Position numbers and translations under genes: made by a program. From NCBI GenBank assembly GCA_903860985.1, contig CAIOSO010000020.1, positions 1-49,889 on the forward strand: a DNA stretch of 49,889 nt. The letters run 5' to 3'. Positions 37,396 through 48,078 of the stretch are shown piece after piece; the stretch's first letter is position 1; each line of letters starts with the position of its first letter. Below the pieces are notes generated by a model, which made no database searches, was not told where the DNA came from, and saw only the letters and a program-made list of their open reading frames with translations. Source of the DNA: an uncultured Flavobacteriales bacterium. GTDB taxonomy: Bacteria; Bacteroidota; Bacteroidia; Flavobacteriales_D; Crocinitomicaceae.

Positions 37396-37989
37396 ATGCA
37401 AGCAGAATTTTGGAATGAACGGTATAAAGAAAAAGTGTTTGCATACGGATTGCAAGCAAATGATTTCCTACAAGAACAAAGCTTTCCTGAAGGATCAAAA
37501 ATTCTCTGTTTGGCAGAAGGAGAAGGCAGAAATGGTGTGTTTCTAGCAGAACAAGGTCATGATGTCACCTGTGTGGACTATTCCGAAGAAGGAATTAAAA
37601 AAATGAGTCAATTAGCAGAAATGAAAGGTGTGCAAATTCATACAGTTTGTGCGGATTTGAATGAATTTGAGTTCAACGAAAATACATGGGACGGAATCGT
37701 TATCATTTTTGGACACCTTCCAACCGCTTTACGTGAAAAAGTACATGGTCAATTTTACAAGGCACTAAAACCTGGAGGTAAATTGGTGTTGGAAGCATAT
37801 CATAAAACGCAGTTGAATTATAAAACGGGTGGACCAATGACTGAAACGATGTTGTATTCCGATGAGGAATTACGTACTGATTTCCATGAGTTTAAACACC
37901 TTGAAATAAACCAATTAGAAAGAGAAGTCCACGAAGGTGAGTTCCACTTTGGAAATGCCGCTGTTATTCAAGTGATTGCAGAAAAGTAG
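37396..37989 (+). CDS. Class I SAM-dependent methyltransferase (TehB/thiol methyltransferase-like)
   Basis: A 197-residue enzyme opening with FWNERYKEKVFAYG, then SAM motif I as LCLAEGEGRNGVFLAEQGHDVTCVDYS (about 36-62; the first Gly of the usual GxGxG is altered to AEGEG). Motif II is WDGIVIIFGHLP and the post-motif KPGGKLVLEAYHK. This resembles small TehB-like enzymes and thiol methyltransferases. It lies 5 nt after the TauE gene in the sulfur operon, so a sulfur or chalcogen acceptor is possible. That is inference. The longer reading starting inside the TauE gene is an artefact. Confidence 0.8.
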   Translation: MQAEFWNERYKEKVFAYGLQANDFLQEQSFPEGSKILCLAEGEGRNGVFLAEQGHDVTCVDYSEEGIKKMSQLAEMKGVQIHTVCADLNEFEFNENTWDGIVIIFGHLPTALREKVHGQFYKALKPGGKLVLEAYHKTQLNYKTGGPMTETMLYSDEELRTDFHEFKHLEINQLEREVHEGEFHFGNAAVIQVIAEK

Positions 37990-37994
37990 GTTTG

Positions 37995-38050
<56 letters not shown>

Positions 38051-38092
38051 TTTTCAATGAACTTTATTAAGTTTGTGTTGTACTTGAAGTTC

Positions 38093-38545
38093 ATGAAGCA
38101 TTTTTCCATTTCTATTGCATTGCTGTTATCGTTTTTTTGGACGAGTCAATCGTTGCATGGACAAGATAACTGTACCTTTCAAACGCACATTCGAAAAGGC
38201 AGTAATTACGTCTTTTCTACCTATTTGGCAGGAGATTACAAAACGCCATTGGAGGGAAAATGCGAATCCTTTATTCAAGGTCAACTCTACGAGAGACGTG
38301 AATTTCTTCACGGACATTTGATCTCCGAAGAGGCAAATTTTCAAGATGGAAAACCACGCATCATTCTGAAAACATATGCTGATCGTCCAGATGGAATACT
38401 TGCAGAACTTCGCTCTTATTGGGGAAATGGTCAGCCAGCCATGTATTGCTTATATTACTTGGATGAATCTGGTCGTCGATGCATGAAACAAACGGATTAT
38501 CATTTGAATGGTAAAAAACGATTTGTTCAATCGTTTAGACATTAG
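38093..38545 (+). CDS. Small secreted protein, MORN-like
   Basis: A 150-residue protein from the ATG at 38093, which gives a clean signal peptide (MKHFSISIALLLSFFW..., cleavage near LHGQ). An in-frame ATG at 38057 would add 12 hydrophobic residues. The mature part has weak MORN/YwqK-like units (GQLYERREFLHGHLISEEANFQDGKP, YHLNGKKRFVQSF). The function is unknown. It follows the hexamer microsatellite and copy B of the palindromic repeat, which occupy its upstream region. No standard -7 motif was found there. Confidence 0.6.
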   Translation: MKHFSISIALLLSFFWTSQSLHGQDNCTFQTHIRKGSNYVFSTYLAGDYKTPLEGKCESFIQGQLYERREFLHGHLISEEANFQDGKPRIILKTYADRPDGILAELRSYWGNGQPAMYCLYYLDESGRRCMKQTDYHLNGKKRFVQSFRH

Positions 38546-39719: not shown

Positions 39720-39739
39720 GAATCAATCGAATAGATTTA

Positions 39740-39772
39740 ATGCCCTGGCGAGTTCGTCAGGGCATTTTTTTT
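39740..39772 (+). terminator. Intrinsic terminator after T9SS type A cargo gene
   Basis: ATGCCCTG pairs with CAGGGCAT around a GC-containing loop that can extend the stem, followed by eight T. Confidence 0.88.
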
Positions 39773-39823
39773 GGAATACTATTCTGTGTTGTTAAATGAA
39801 TGTTTATCCTCATAGAATTATGC

Positions 39824-39831
39824 TACTTTTG
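39824..39831 (+). promoter_or_regulatory. -7 promoter element before His/Cys-rich small protein
   Basis: TACTTTTG, an exact TAnnTTTG match, ends 4 nt before a GTG start at 39836. It lies inside the longer reading from 39800, so the GTG start is favoured. Confidence 0.5.
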
Positions 39832-39835
39832 TTCA

Positions 39836-40138
39836 GTGAAGAATAAAATTATTTCCAGTTTATTATTGTTTACCTTTTTCGTGCTGCTTACGCCACGGGA
39901 CTGGTGGCATGACTGCCATCATAAACAATTCTCCACGACTTCACTGAATGAAAGACATTTCGATGATGGTTCCTGTGACATTTGTGACATCGACCTGGGA
40001 TTTTTCACGGTTCAATCGATTCTTTTTTTTCGTTCGGATAAACCGACACTTCCAACAGTAGTTTCTGCTGGACTTTTGGATAAAGAGAACACTCCTTATC
40101 TGTCTTTTTCACTTCGAGGACCACCGCAAAACGCTTAA
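39836..40138 (+). CDS. Small exported His/Cys-rich protein, probable metal binder
   Basis: A 100-residue protein from the GTG at 39836 (a longer form from ATG 39800 adds 12 residues and precedes the promoter element). A hydrophobic signal (MKNKIISSLLLFTFFVLL) is followed by DWWHDCHHKQF and then DDGSCDICDIDLGF. This is the arrangement of short periplasmic metal-binding proteins encoded before TonB receptors in Bacteroidota. The HxCHH and CxxC groups could bind copper, zinc or a similar ion. It precedes a TonB receptor gene by 201 nt of structured leader. The role in metal handling is inferred. Confidence 0.6.
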   Translation: MKNKIISSLLLFTFFVLLTPRDWWHDCHHKQFSTTSLNERHFDDGSCDICDIDLGFFTVQSILFFRSDKPTLPTVVSAGLLDKENTPYLSFSLRGPPQNA

Positions 40139-40142
40139 TATT

Positions 40143-40249
40143 GATGGATGCACCTTTGACAAAAGTCAATAGGTGAAGATTCATTTGCATGGACGCTGCG
40201 TTTCCGCTTGTTGGTGCGTATGATGTCCCATGGATGAACAGCATCCATC
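40143..40249 (+). promoter_or_regulatory. Structured leader with competing helices before TonB receptor
   Basis: GATGGATGC (40143-40151) can pair with GCATCCATC (40241-40249) as a 9-bp closing helix. Inside it, CACCTTTGAC (40151-40160) pairs with GTCAATAGGTG (40165-40175) with one bulge and an AAAA loop. ATGGATG (40230-40236) competes for the same 3' strand (CATCCAT, 40242-40248). Mutually exclusive helices are typical of switches or attenuators. I recognise no known riboswitch core. Confidence 0.4.
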
Positions 40250-40339
40250 CTTTAGCCTAAAATGTATTTTTCGTGTTCGTTAAGACGCGAGAAACCATTC
40301 GCAGGAAGTATTTATGAAGTGTCTAGAAGTAAATCACAT

Positions 40340-42622
40340 ATGAAATTTATTGCATTACTCGTAGCCTTTGTTGCTTTGTCGACAAACGCACAAAAAGAAT
40401 TATCAGGTATTGTTAAAAATAAACGAACAAACCTTCCGATTGCCAATGCGCGCATTCACATAGAAGAAACAGGGGAGACGTCTATTTCGGATGAAACAGG
40501 ATTCTTCATGTTTATTGGAAATTATCCGGAAAGCATCCATTTGCATGTTTCGGCCATCGAATTTGAATCAAAAGTTTTGTTTTTAACACAATCTGCACAA
40601 GCACTTGGACGACAGTATCTAGTGGGGAGTAAAATTGAAATCTATATGGCGGAAAGGCATTTAGACCTTGAAGAAATTACCGTGTCAACCGGAATCAATG
40701 TTCAAAAAAATAAGAGTCCATTTCTGATTGAAACCCGAAAATTGTCCGATTTGAATGGGATTTCCACCCTCAACATGGGAGAAGCGTTAGCCCAGATTCC
40801 GGGAGTTTACCAATCGAGTTTGGGAAATGGCATTTCGAAACCGGTTATTCGAGGATTACAAGGAATTCGCGTGGTCAGTTTATTGAATGGCATGCGTATG
40901 GAAGGTCAGCAATGGGGTGGAGATCATGGAATGGGAATTTCGGAAGTTGGAATTGGTTCAGTCGAAGTGATCAAAGGTCCTGCATCTTTGTTGTATGGTG
41001 CGGACGCCTTGGGTGGTGTGTTGTATTATTCAGACGAATCGTATGCTGCTGTGAATTCTCAATCTGTAAAGGTTCAGTCCATTTATCACAGCAATACAAA
41101 CGGAGGAACGCTGCGAATGCTTTACAAGCAATCGAATCAGAAATTTCGGTTTTTAATCGGTGGTAGCTATGCGAATCATGCCGATTTTCAGTTGCCAAAC
41201 CACAAATTCGCTCAGAATTCGCGTTTCAACGAATCGGTTTTAAAGACAGCACTTTCATGGAACGGAAAAAACAAGGTGCATCACCTGCGTTATTCGTTTA
41301 ATCACGTAAACAGTGGGTTGCCGGGAGATACGCACGACTCCATTCCCAATCCACTTGAATTTCAATCAGAAGTTCAACGTCGAAAACAAACGATTCCAGC
41401 TCAATTTTTTGATAATCATTATTTATCCTTTGAGAACAAATGGTTTTTAGATAGAAATGAAGTTTCCGTGTTGCTTGGACAAACCATGAATCAATTAACT
41501 GAATATGACGAGGAGGCAACGATTCCAGGGATTCAAATGCGTTTGTGGAATTCATTGTACACGGCTAAATGGACGCATACCTTTAATCAAAAGCTAAAAG
41601 TGGTGAACGGAATGCAAGGAATGTTTCAAAATAACGTGAATGGGCCTGACGCTACCGAACGCTTATTGCCAAATTCACTTTCTTTCGATAATGGACTTTT
41701 CTCGATGTGGATGTATTCCATGGATCGCTGGAATTTTCAAGCAGGATTAAGGTATAACTTGAGATATATCAAGACGTTGGAGGAATTCAAAGGGAAACAA
41801 GCGATTTCAACATTTTATGGAAGTCCAAATGCGTCCATCGGCGCCGTTTATTCCACAGACAAGTTTACCTTTCGAACGAATGTTTCAACGGGATATCGAG
41901 CACCACATCCATCGGAATTGTTAGCAAACGGCTTTCATCACGGTGCTTTACGCTACGAAATTGGAGATGAACAACTGCGTCCGGAACGAGCAAGTCAGTT
42001 GGACTTAAGCTTCGAAGTAAAAAGAGATCACTTGGTCTTGATTGTGAATCCATTTTTGAATAATATCCAACAGTTTATTTACCTGCAACCGATTGATTCA
42101 ATGGTGGATAATTTACCCGTGTTTGCATACAAGCAACTGAATAAAGTACTTTTTTATGGAAGCGATTTCGGAGTGCATTACCATCCTCATTTTGCACATG
42201 ATTTACACCTAGAAGCAACGTATTCCTATTTAAACGTGCTGACTTCAACAGATAGTAGTGTGTCGATGATTCCACCGGGTCGCTTCATGATGAGTCTTCG
42301 CTACCAATTGGATCTTGGGAAAAAAATACAAATCAAGGATCTACTTGTTCAATATACGTATATGAACAAGCAAAACAAGCTTGCATTTAATGAGACAGCG
42401 AGTCCGTCGTATCAGTTGCTCGACGCTTCTGTACAATTAAAATGGAATGGAAAAACGGCCATGGATGTACAATTTGGTTGTAGAAATATCCTAAATACGA
42501 GCTACATCGATCACCTGTCTAGACTTAAAAACATTTCCATGGCAAGTCCAGGAAGAAATATCTATATCAGTATCAATTTTAACATCAGTCAGCAACTAAA
42601 AAAGAAAAAGGACGAAAATTAA
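40340..42622 (+). CDS. TonB-dependent outer membrane receptor
   Basis: A 760-residue receptor. It has a signal peptide (1-18, STNAQ) and a carboxypeptidase-regulatory-like domain (about 20-105, LSGIVKNKRTNLPIANARIHIEETGETSISDETGFF). The plug (about 125-235) carries LNMGEALAQIPGVYQSSLGNGISKPVIRGLQGIRV, GMRMEGQQWGGDHGMGISEVGIGSVEVIKGPASLLYGADALGG. A 22-strand-type barrel follows to the C-terminal strand NIYISINFNISQ. The WGGDHG plug loop recalls metal-type receptors, in line with the preceding His/Cys-rich protein. ATG 40340 is chosen because it gives the signal peptide. The substrate is unproven. Confidence 0.87.
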   Translation: MKFIALLVAFVALSTNAQKELSGIVKNKRTNLPIANARIHIEETGETSISDETGFFMFIGNYPESIHLHVSAIEFESKVLFLTQSAQALGRQYLVGSKIEIYMAERHLDLEEITVSTGINVQKNKSPFLIETRKLSDLNGISTLNMGEALAQIPGVYQSSLGNGISKPVIRGLQGIRVVSLLNGMRMEGQQWGGDHGMGISEVGIGSVEVIKGPASLLYGADALGGVLYYSDESYAAVNSQSVKVQSIYHSNTNGGTLRMLYKQSNQKFRFLIGGSYANHADFQLPNHKFAQNSRFNESVLKTALSWNGKNKVHHLRYSFNHVNSGLPGDTHDSIPNPLEFQSEVQRRKQTIPAQFFDNHYLSFENKWFLDRNEVSVLLGQTMNQLTEYDEEATIPGIQMRLWNSLYTAKWTHTFNQKLKVVNGMQGMFQNNVNGPDATERLLPNSLSFDNGLFSMWMYSMDRWNFQAGLRYNLRYIKTLEEFKGKQAISTFYGSPNASIGAVYSTDKFTFRTNVSTGYRAPHPSELLANGFHHGALRYEIGDEQLRPERASQLDLSFEVKRDHLVLIVNPFLNNIQQFIYLQPIDSMVDNLPVFAYKQLNKVLFYGSDFGVHYHPHFAHDLHLEATYSYLNVLTSTDSSVSMIPPGRFMMSLRYQLDLGKKIQIKDLLVQYTYMNKQNKLAFNETASPSYQLLDASVQLKWNGKTAMDVQFGCRNILNTSYIDHLSRLKNISMASPGRNIYISINFNISQQLKKKKDEN

Positions 42623-47469: not shown

Positions 47470-47868
47470 GGGGCCGACCTTGGATTTGACAGCGATAGCG
47501 GTAGTCAAGTGTCAGCATGCAGAGGGTTGAGGTGAACCTCTTAAATATCTTGTCTCGAACAATAATTGACAACACGTCATACGCACTTGCTGCTTAATTA
47601 GCTGAATGTTAATTGGCTTAATCTGACTGAAGTATAGTAGGTCGGACAAGTACTTTCGGTAGATCGTCGCCTAATCGATTTACCACTCGAAAGTTCATCC
47701 CATTAGGCTAGTGTTTGCGACGGTACTAAGCAAATGCGAAATTCAGTACCTAAGTTCAGGTTTTGGGTGTTCTTGTCCGTGCCTGGATCGAAAAACAACC
47801 GAGGAATAAGCATGTAGAAAGCTTGAAAACTCGTCGTTTGGACGAGGGTTCGAACCCCTCCGGCTCCA
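47470..47868 (+). ncRNA. ssrA: tmRNA (transfer-messenger RNA)
   Basis: Rescues stalled ribosomes by trans-translation and tags the nascent protein for proteolysis. The 5' GGGGCCG pairs with the 3' CGGCTCC to make the 7-bp acceptor stem (one G-U). A T-arm GGGTTCGAACCCC lies near the 3' end with discriminator A at 47868. The sequence GACCTTGGATTTGACAGCGA after the stem is typical of tmRNA. The tag reading frame ends TAC GCA CTT GCT GCT TAA (47580-47597), giving ...YALAA, and most likely begins at GAC 47568 (DNTSYALAA). CCA is not encoded (ACT follows). It is a one-piece molecule of about 399 nt with a promoter and terminator. Confidence 0.95.
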
Positions 47869-47876
47869 CTCTGATC

Positions 47877-47907
47877 AAAAAGCTACTCCACAGGAGTGGC
47901 TTTTTTT
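47877..47907 (+). terminator. Intrinsic terminator of tmRNA
   Basis: A 9-bp stem (AGCTACTCC with GGAGTGGCT, one G-U) extended by AAAA/TTTT, with an ACA loop and a T run. Confidence 0.9.
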
Positions 47908-48020
47908 GTGGGCACAAATGAGGACTCGTCCTCAAATTTGGGCAAACAAAAAAAGACAACATCGCCTTGTGATGAAGCTTTTTGATCCATTGCACGTTAG
48001 CCCACGGGGAAAGCGCAGCT

Positions 48021-48037
48021 AAGCCCTTCGGCTCCAC
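48021..48037 (+). repeat. Imperfect copy of the tmRNA 3' end (possible attachment-site remnant)
   Basis: 15 of 17 bases match the tmRNA 3' end at 47853-47869, including an unbroken CGGCTCCAC. The flanking bases are unrelated. Duplication of an ssrA 3' end is what integrating elements leave behind, but no integrase is in view. Confidence 0.4.
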
Positions 48038-48041
48038 ATAC

Positions 48042-48078
48042 GCTCGCCGAAGTTTTTGAGTCAAAAACGAAGGCGAGC
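48042..48078. repeat. Imperfect inverted repeat
   Basis: GCTCGCC...GGCGAGC outer arms and TTTTTGA...TCAAAAA inner arms, separated by a 4-nt internal mismatch, form a 37-nt hairpin. It lacks a T tract on the plus strand. Confidence 0.6.

Follow-up and report, generated by a model that had tools for sequence, protein, structure and literature searches.

Among the described systems, one of the nearest to the locus considered here is CruR of Bordetella pertussis, a DUF2946 upstream ORF (uORF) located before the gene of the TonB-dependent transporter BfrG (PMC9426467). In the passages cited from that work, the C-terminal RAPP motif of CruR is needed for expression and its CxxC motif for copper control, the 45-residue spacing between them being conserved (PMC9426467). 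CruR arrests translation in vitro with the RAPP prolines in the P and A sites, and the gene under its control is that of the TonB receptor (PMC12992588, PMC9426467). Small secretory uORFs with RAPP or RGPP have been reported before TonB receptor genes across Gram-negative bacteria, and Cu-related uORFs are stated, in the part of the same source used here, to be lacking in Bacteroidota (PMC12992588). CutF of Rhodobacter capsulatus opens a stem-loop lying over the start of the next gene, cutO; the cited part of that study counts 5,334 CutF-like proteins, of which about 40%, once normalised, are from Bacteroidota, and places TonB-like proteins among their commonest neighbours (PMC9973294). SecM of Escherichia coli is, in the passages cited, an arrest peptide that is exported and has RAGP close to its end; the ribosome stalled on it breaks up a stem-loop in which the start of secA, the next gene, is hidden (PMC10987492).

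The nascent-chain metal sensors whose workings are established, CruR and CutF, come from Proteobacteria; members of the Bacteroidota branch have been counted in earlier work. The locus analysed here belongs to an uncultured bacterium of the Crocinitomicaceae and is part of a 49,889-nt stretch of DNA, the whole of which is called the window below. In it, the gap between a small reading frame and the gene of a TonB-dependent receptor forms a conserved RNA structure under selection, a cis-acting element that precedes an uptake receptor. In the openly licensed literature that was searched, this RNA is not described, and a tested nascent-chain metal sensor of Bacteroidota was not found.

The locus and its small upstream reading frame

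The features of the locus are collected in Table 1. The earlier note on this DNA had pointed to HDCHH and CDIC motifs in the product of the upstream gene; both are found in the small ORF, and the association of a metal-binding-type upstream protein with the gap RNA, also proposed there, is supported. Two other start codons were considered and rejected: the in-frame ATG at 39800 for the small ORF, because it is located upstream of the -7 box, and the ATG at 40262 for the receptor, because conservation is seen for the ATG at 40340 with the signal peptide after it and not for the in-frame extension. The relatives of the window that have named records are MAGs of Flavobacteriales or Crocinitomicaceae, the exceptions being one labelled Polynucleobacter and one distant Sphingobacteriales.

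Table 1. Coordinates of the features of the locus in the window
Feature	Position	Strand	Remarks
Intrinsic-terminator-like hairpin, then T run	39739..39766	+	closes the gene preceding the operon
TACTTTTG, match to Bacteroidota -7 box TAnnTTTG	39824..39831	+	directly 5' of the small ORF
Small upstream ORF (signal-anchor, WWHDCHH, CDIC, RGPP, QNA)	39836..40138	+	GTG start, 100 aa + stop
Codons CGA GGA CCA CCG (Arg-Gly-Pro-Pro)	40115..40126	+	presumed arrest motif
P1, 5' arm ACGCTTAATATT	40131..40142	+	last two codons, stop codon, next four bases
Stop codon TAA of the small ORF	40136-40138	+	
Gap between small ORF stop and receptor ATG	40139-40339	+	201 nt
P2, 5' arm	40143..40151	+	long-range helix of the earlier note
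P3, bulged hairpin	40151..40175	+	AAAA loop
P5 arm inside P2	40180..40238	+	consensus base 40180-40186/40232-40238
Competing hairpin of the earlier note	40230..40248	+	present in the window, not conserved
P2, 3' arm	40241..40249	+	
P4 hairpin	40261..40299	+	AATG...TTTTTCG / CGAGAAACCATT
3' conserved block	40305..40329	+	includes P1 3' arm
P1, 3' arm AGTATTTATGAAGTGT	40307-40322	+	-33 to -18 from receptor ATG
TonB-dependent receptor, plug + beta-barrel (Pfam)	40340..42622	+	760 aa

The motif TAnnTTTG, which we take to be the Bacteroidota -7 promoter consensus, stands directly before the uORF as an exact match in 8 of the 10 genomes in which the gap RNA was found (referred to below as carriers), the other two, L025 and L030, reading TAATTTTA. 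In the window this box is located downstream of the terminator-like hairpin. This arrangement suggests that the uORF and the receptor gene may share one two-gene mRNA, with the promoter just before the uORF.

Elsewhere in the window, a tmRNA gene is present at 47470-47871 (+; Rfam RF00023, 127.6 bits), overlapped by a probably spurious minus-strand ORF listed at 47756-48064. A CTCTCGCTCTCACTCTC repeat run at about 38010-38055 (+), close to the listed start of ORF 37976-38545, reads (SL)n; the true start of that ORF is probably further downstream.

The RGPP motif of the small ORF is located three residues before its end and 43 residues after the CxxC. The relatives of this ORF have a hydrophobic start, W-x-H-x-C, CxxC and an R[GA]PP end; a hydrophobic N-terminal segment was seen by eye in 15 aligned members, and the window ORF, at 100 aa, is shorter than 150 aa. 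R[GA]PP is found near the end in 89 of 91 distinct junctions, at 2-6 residues from the end in 86 of them, and is replaced by KAPP in two (the uORFs of L109 and L128), a count that is partly given by construction because the search profile contains the motifs, which is not true of the fixed spacing. In the 75 junctions with a CxxC, the distance to R[GA]PP is 43 (56 junctions), 44 (14), 45 (4) or 46 residues (1), and a first, narrower set of 28 distinct members has 43 throughout. A clear CxxC is missing from 16 of the 91 junctions, and in L032 its first Cys is lost.

Members of the family were found in 49 of the 86 genomes of the genus; in the class, 50 of 295 genomes, from 31 of 155 genera, have one. 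The downstream gene matches a receptor profile in 82 of 89 called genes; the other seven include an ABC ATPase, a ZigA-like GTPase, two barrel-like proteins and three small lipoproteins. Several genomes of the genus, G004, G006, G009 and G062 among them, have a receptor that is 48-51% identical and no uORF match up to E 0.001.

When compared with DUF2946 (Pfam PF11162, gathering cut-off 23.7 bits), the window uORF gave no match up to E 1. Four of 15 family members did match within this limit (best 7e-4), none of 30 genomes reached the cut-off, the best genome match being 19.3 bits, and weak matches also occurred in 9 of 14 control genomes. Judged by these profile matches, the family is a sub-threshold relative of DUF2946. 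By its sequence the small ORF fits the layout of the CruR/CutF-like uORFs, namely an export signal, a Pro-Pro motif within the last 15 residues, Cys/His residues at a fixed distance from it and, downstream on the same strand, a gene of putative metal transport, and translational arrest is predicted. An exported frame ending in R[GA]PP is common to the junctions, which points to nascent-chain arrest.

As to the metal, the nearest solved relative of the receptor by sequence is ZnuD (E 6e-17), ahead of receptors for haem, colicin I, B12 and copper (OprC). The score against the NCBIfam ZnuD model NF038289 is 112.5 bits, below its curated cut-off of 950 bits, and in the NCBIfam ranking a haem receptor family comes first and ZnuD third, all below cut-off. 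At locus L180 (G379:C48), an RGPP-ending uORF of the family stands 74 nt before a gene matching the zinc chaperone ZigA with 539 bits (cut-off 600). These matches are a hint that some members of the family may sense zinc, and zinc is a lead for the metal that would be sensed here, with copper as another candidate. A literature search for zinc in connection with RGPP arrest peptides returned nothing specific. A similar small lipoprotein gene adjoins the receptor at eight loci (L207, L209, L211, L218, L219, L221, L222 and L223); this type of lipoprotein has the Cys followed by an acidic stretch and I-T-T/S-V-x-L, and a Pfam/NCBIfam scan of the protein from one of the eight loci gave no match.

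The structured RNA of the gap

With a covariance model the gap RNA was found in 10 of the 86 genomes of the genus, as one copy in each, with E values of 2.5e-33 or better, and the next-best match had E 0.0075. All ten copies are located between the small ORF and the receptor gene, and the same search gave a second copy in none of the 86 genomes. A search starting from the receptor had given nine further genomes with a homologous gap, 200-204 nt long. Among 299 genomes of the order the model made 7 matches, all in the same genus. In the covariance-model searches, genomes over 40 were scored with stricter filters, and weak distant copies may therefore be missed. Of the 13 weak matches listed (E 0.0075-0.76), the four examined (L083 and L093-L095) all fall within long reading frames. 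The gaps of G049, G003, G117 and G106, which are 175-286 nt long, have no recognisable copy. An origin from a repeat or a mobile element was rejected, a DNA search of the organism's own 2.44-Mb draft genome having returned only the locus itself. The earlier note had recognised no known riboswitch core in the gap. In the Rfam search, there is no family there at the gathering score and no match up to E 10.

RNAalifold gives the RNA a single architecture, in which an outer helix, P1, encloses P2 (itself holding P3 and P5) and the separate hairpin P4. P2 and P3 correspond to the 9-bp helix and the bulged hairpin described previously, of which the former (GATGGATGC/GCATCCATC) is present letter for letter and the latter as two 5-bp halves with one bulged T. 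The third element of that description, the 7-bp hairpin sharing 40241-40248 with P2, is also present in the window. The segment 40139-40340 folds with -58.2 kcal/mol, compared with -45.5 +/- 4.0 kcal/mol for its dinucleotide shuffles (z -3.1); of the 200 shuffles, one was as stable. The single-sequence z-scores of the ten carriers range from -0.7 to -4.2 with a mean of -2.4, and for the gaps of L024 and L031 single-sequence folding is not significant relative to shuffles.

With either scoring scheme, the RNAalifold consensus energy of the real alignment lies below that of all 400 column-shuffled ones (z -7.4 and -8.5), and the covariation part of this energy is above 398 of 400 shuffles with the default scheme and 400 of 400 with RIBOSUM. 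Cells changed on both sides number 18, compared with 7.6 +/- 2.0 in shuffles, none of 500 being as high. Standard pairs make up 91.9% of the pair cells on the model alignment against 37-45% in slid versions, a control that favours the fold because the structure was derived from the same sequences. As to the compensatory changes that the earlier note had asked for, covariation is seen in part of the structure and is absent from the competing hairpin.

The helices are kept to different degrees in the ten carriers. In P1 the outer pairs are retained in 100% of cells and the inner pairs in 97.1%, with a pairing probability of the outer pairs of 0.8 or more in 7 of 10 carriers and of 0.17 in L024; P1 has zero two-sided compensatory changes among the ten. 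P2 (9 bp, with an 8-bp core) keeps 96.3% of its pair cells, its pairing probability being about 0 in L024 and L027. P3 keeps 92.9% and is predicted with a probability of 0.69 or more in all ten. The base of P5 is the weakest helix (81.4% of cells kept), and the window's own minimum-energy fold pairs the P5 region differently from the consensus. P4 retains 92.1% of its pair cells, with two columns showing changes on both sides, and its mean identity of 0.602 against 0.585 at the fourfold sites of the receptor gene indicates a similar rate of divergence. The leader as a whole is conserved above the receptor fourfold sites in 45 of 45 pairs of carriers; its 5' and 3' blocks have a mean identity of 0.864 against 0.585 at these sites, and the middle of the alignment is variable.

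At 30 related junctions in the genus the same two genes lie only 23-72 nt apart, and hence the gap RNA is not the common feature of the pair. Hairpins around the stop codon recur among the relatives. Stable hairpins enclosing it were found at 31 of 63 non-redundant junctions of relatives and in 14 of 74 control gene pairs (Fisher 2e-4). The corresponding numbers for gaps of 20-60 nt are 17 of 34 and 4 of 41 (Fisher 2e-4), and those for gaps of 61-150 nt, 14 of 29 relatives and 10 of 33 controls, show no clear difference (p 0.19). A first, smaller control set had given 4 of 38 overall and 0 of 15 for short gaps, and we rely on the larger one; 100 shuffles were used for the controls and 200 for the uORF junctions. 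Pairing of the stop region with the stretch before the receptor start reached p<=0.05 in 15 of 86 junctions and in 5 of 78 controls (Fisher 0.034), and by a stricter measure, the expected number of stop-region pairs, p<=0.05 was obtained in only 11 of 73. In L175 and L179, with gaps of 122 and 107 nt, 10-11 contiguous pairs join the stop region of the uORF to the pre-start stretch.

The footprint of a stalled ribosome reaches about +16 from the P-site codon. If this general value is counted from the codon of the first Pro, the 5' arm is covered over three bases or more in 35 of 35 junctions, these being the significant non-carriers with at least 5 enclosing pairs.

A probable nascent-chain switch and its alternatives

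In our opinion the locus is probably a nascent-chain metal switch of the CruR/CutF kind, in which the gap RNA, a large, lineage-specific intercistronic fold, would supply the RNA half. The elements computed from the genomes that enter this model are the conserved fold, the promoter-like box, the RGPP/CxxC layout and the recurring stop-codon hairpins; that the ribosome stalls, that a metal is sensed, which way the switch turns and that P1 is its gate are what we infer. The uORF product, bearing Cys/His metal ligands, would be exported through its N-terminal signal during synthesis, and the ribosome would stall at RGPP, its cover on the mRNA extending roughly to the stop codon. If the P site holds the codon of the first Pro, at 40121, a footprint of about +16 would end at 40137, so that P1 would be held open and the region upstream of the receptor would be free for initiation. 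Relief of the arrest, presumably by metal on the nascent chain, would let the ribosome leave; P1 would then close over the pre-start region and/or Rho would gain access, and the receptor would be turned down. In the carrier lineage the P2-P5 domain (about 165 nt) would be accommodated inside P1, at the place where the relatives have a short loop.

P1 is the likeliest gate of such a switch and is not proven to be one, since the duplex of the stop region and the pre-start stretch, judged alone, is significant in only 1 of 10 carriers (L029) and P1 has no two-sided change. Its 3' arm ends 18 nt before the receptor ATG, and the initiation region is therefore overlapped only in part.

The alternative that survives best, which we nevertheless consider rather unlikely, is a CruR-like attenuation in which the stalled ribosome blocks Rho and the fold is incidental or serves to pause RNA polymerase. 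CruR acts via Rho in an intergenic region of 162 bp, similar in length to the 201-nt gap, according to the part of the work cited (PMC9426467). Such a mechanism is at variance with a fold that is under selection, and the relatives with short gaps leave little room for Rho loading past the stop codon.

It is improbable that P1-P5 acts independently of any arrest, as a spacer that tunes mRNA stability or the balance of expression between the two cistrons, or that keeps Rho and RNases off this long stretch. The conservation of the fold and the way in which P4 keeps its pairing without keeping its sequence are what is expected of a structural spacer, and gap length does vary widely among the relatives, but neither the R[GA]PP end at a fixed spacing from CxxC nor the stop-codon hairpins of the short-gap relatives would be explained by it.

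Two further readings assign ligand binding to the P2-P5 domain, and we give each of them a small chance. According to one, the switch has two inputs: the nascent chain would sense zinc, not copper, in this branch of Bacteroidota, and P2-P5 would be a second, independent sensor gating the re-formation of P1. The ZnuD-like receptor and the ZigA-like neighbour at L180 are hints for the zinc part of this proposal only. The other, equally doubtful, is that of a true ligand riboswitch, in which P2-P5 binds a metal or a metabolite and controls the receptor alone. A compact multi-helix domain with conserved 5' and 3' blocks before an uptake receptor does have this appearance, and the earlier note had proposed a ligand-sensing switch based on mutually exclusive helices. 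The competing hairpin, however, has all 7 of its 7 pairs in the window and L024 only, 6 of 7 in L025 and two to four broken pairs in the other seven carriers; with conservation in 2 of 10, the riboswitch reading is left without support for alternative helices, and this part of the earlier proposal is not supported. The RNA is moreover absent from Rfam and confined to one copy per genome at one locus of 10 genomes, relatives have the gene pair with only 23-72 nt between the genes, and a putatively sensing uORF is already present upstream. The gap RNA is thus probably not a classical riboswitch.

That the receptor gene has a separate 5' UTR, transcribed from a promoter within the gap, is very improbable: the sigma-70-like match at 40235-40263 is at chance level, with two such matches against 1.5 expected in the scanned stretch, and TAnnTTTG, present before the uORF in 8 of 10 carriers, occurs inside the gap in 0 of 10. 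A start of receptor transcription downstream of 40249, which the earlier note had named as evidence against its own reading, has no backing here.

Relation to known nascent-chain sensors

If the favoured model of a nascent-chain metal switch is correct, the evolution of its RNA half can be followed here, from stop-codon hairpins that are frequent in the relatives to a 200-nt fold in one lineage. It would provide a concrete model of how a stalled ribosome may be read out over a long spacer, and it raises the question of zinc as the sensed metal in Bacteroidota.

The likeness to CruR-bfrG is considerable. In both cases an exported small uORF directly precedes a TonB receptor gene (PMC9426467), and a CxxC is followed by RAPP in CruR and by RGPP here, three residues before the end. 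The spacing is nearly fixed, with 45 intervening residues in CruR and 43 in the window, and the intergenic region is long, 162 bp and 201 nt, respectively. The differences from CruR, as far as it is described in the passages cited, are that the window uORF falls below the DUF2946 cut-off and has Arg-Gly-Pro-Pro instead of Arg-Ala-Pro-Pro, and that CruR acts via Rho and senses copper, whereas here a conserved fold encloses the stop codon of the uORF. The small secretory proteins with a C-terminal RAPP or RGPP motif and a TonB receptor as the next gene are similar in their layout (PMC12992588); the passages cited from that source contain neither an RNA structure nor a tested Bacteroidota example.

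As at our locus, CutF is an exported nascent chain that has a proline motif at its C terminus, and a stem-loop of the mRNA precedes the next gene, cutO. In contrast to the switch proposed here, CutF turns a copper oxidase on when copper is present, and the intergenic regions of the CutF-like genes are mostly shorter than 100 nt in the part of the study cited (PMC9973294), compared with the 201-nt RNA and its conserved multi-helix fold in the window. SecM likewise is an exported arrest peptide, and the opening of a helix by the stalled ribosome, described for SecM (PMC10987492), is what we propose for P1; SecM, however, monitors Sec export and not a metal, and its structure hides the Shine-Dalgarno sequence (PMC10987492), whereas the helix here covers -33 to -18. 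The class of uORFs is already known from these systems, and what is new at this locus is the lineage-specific 200-nt fold placed between the uORF and the receptor gene.
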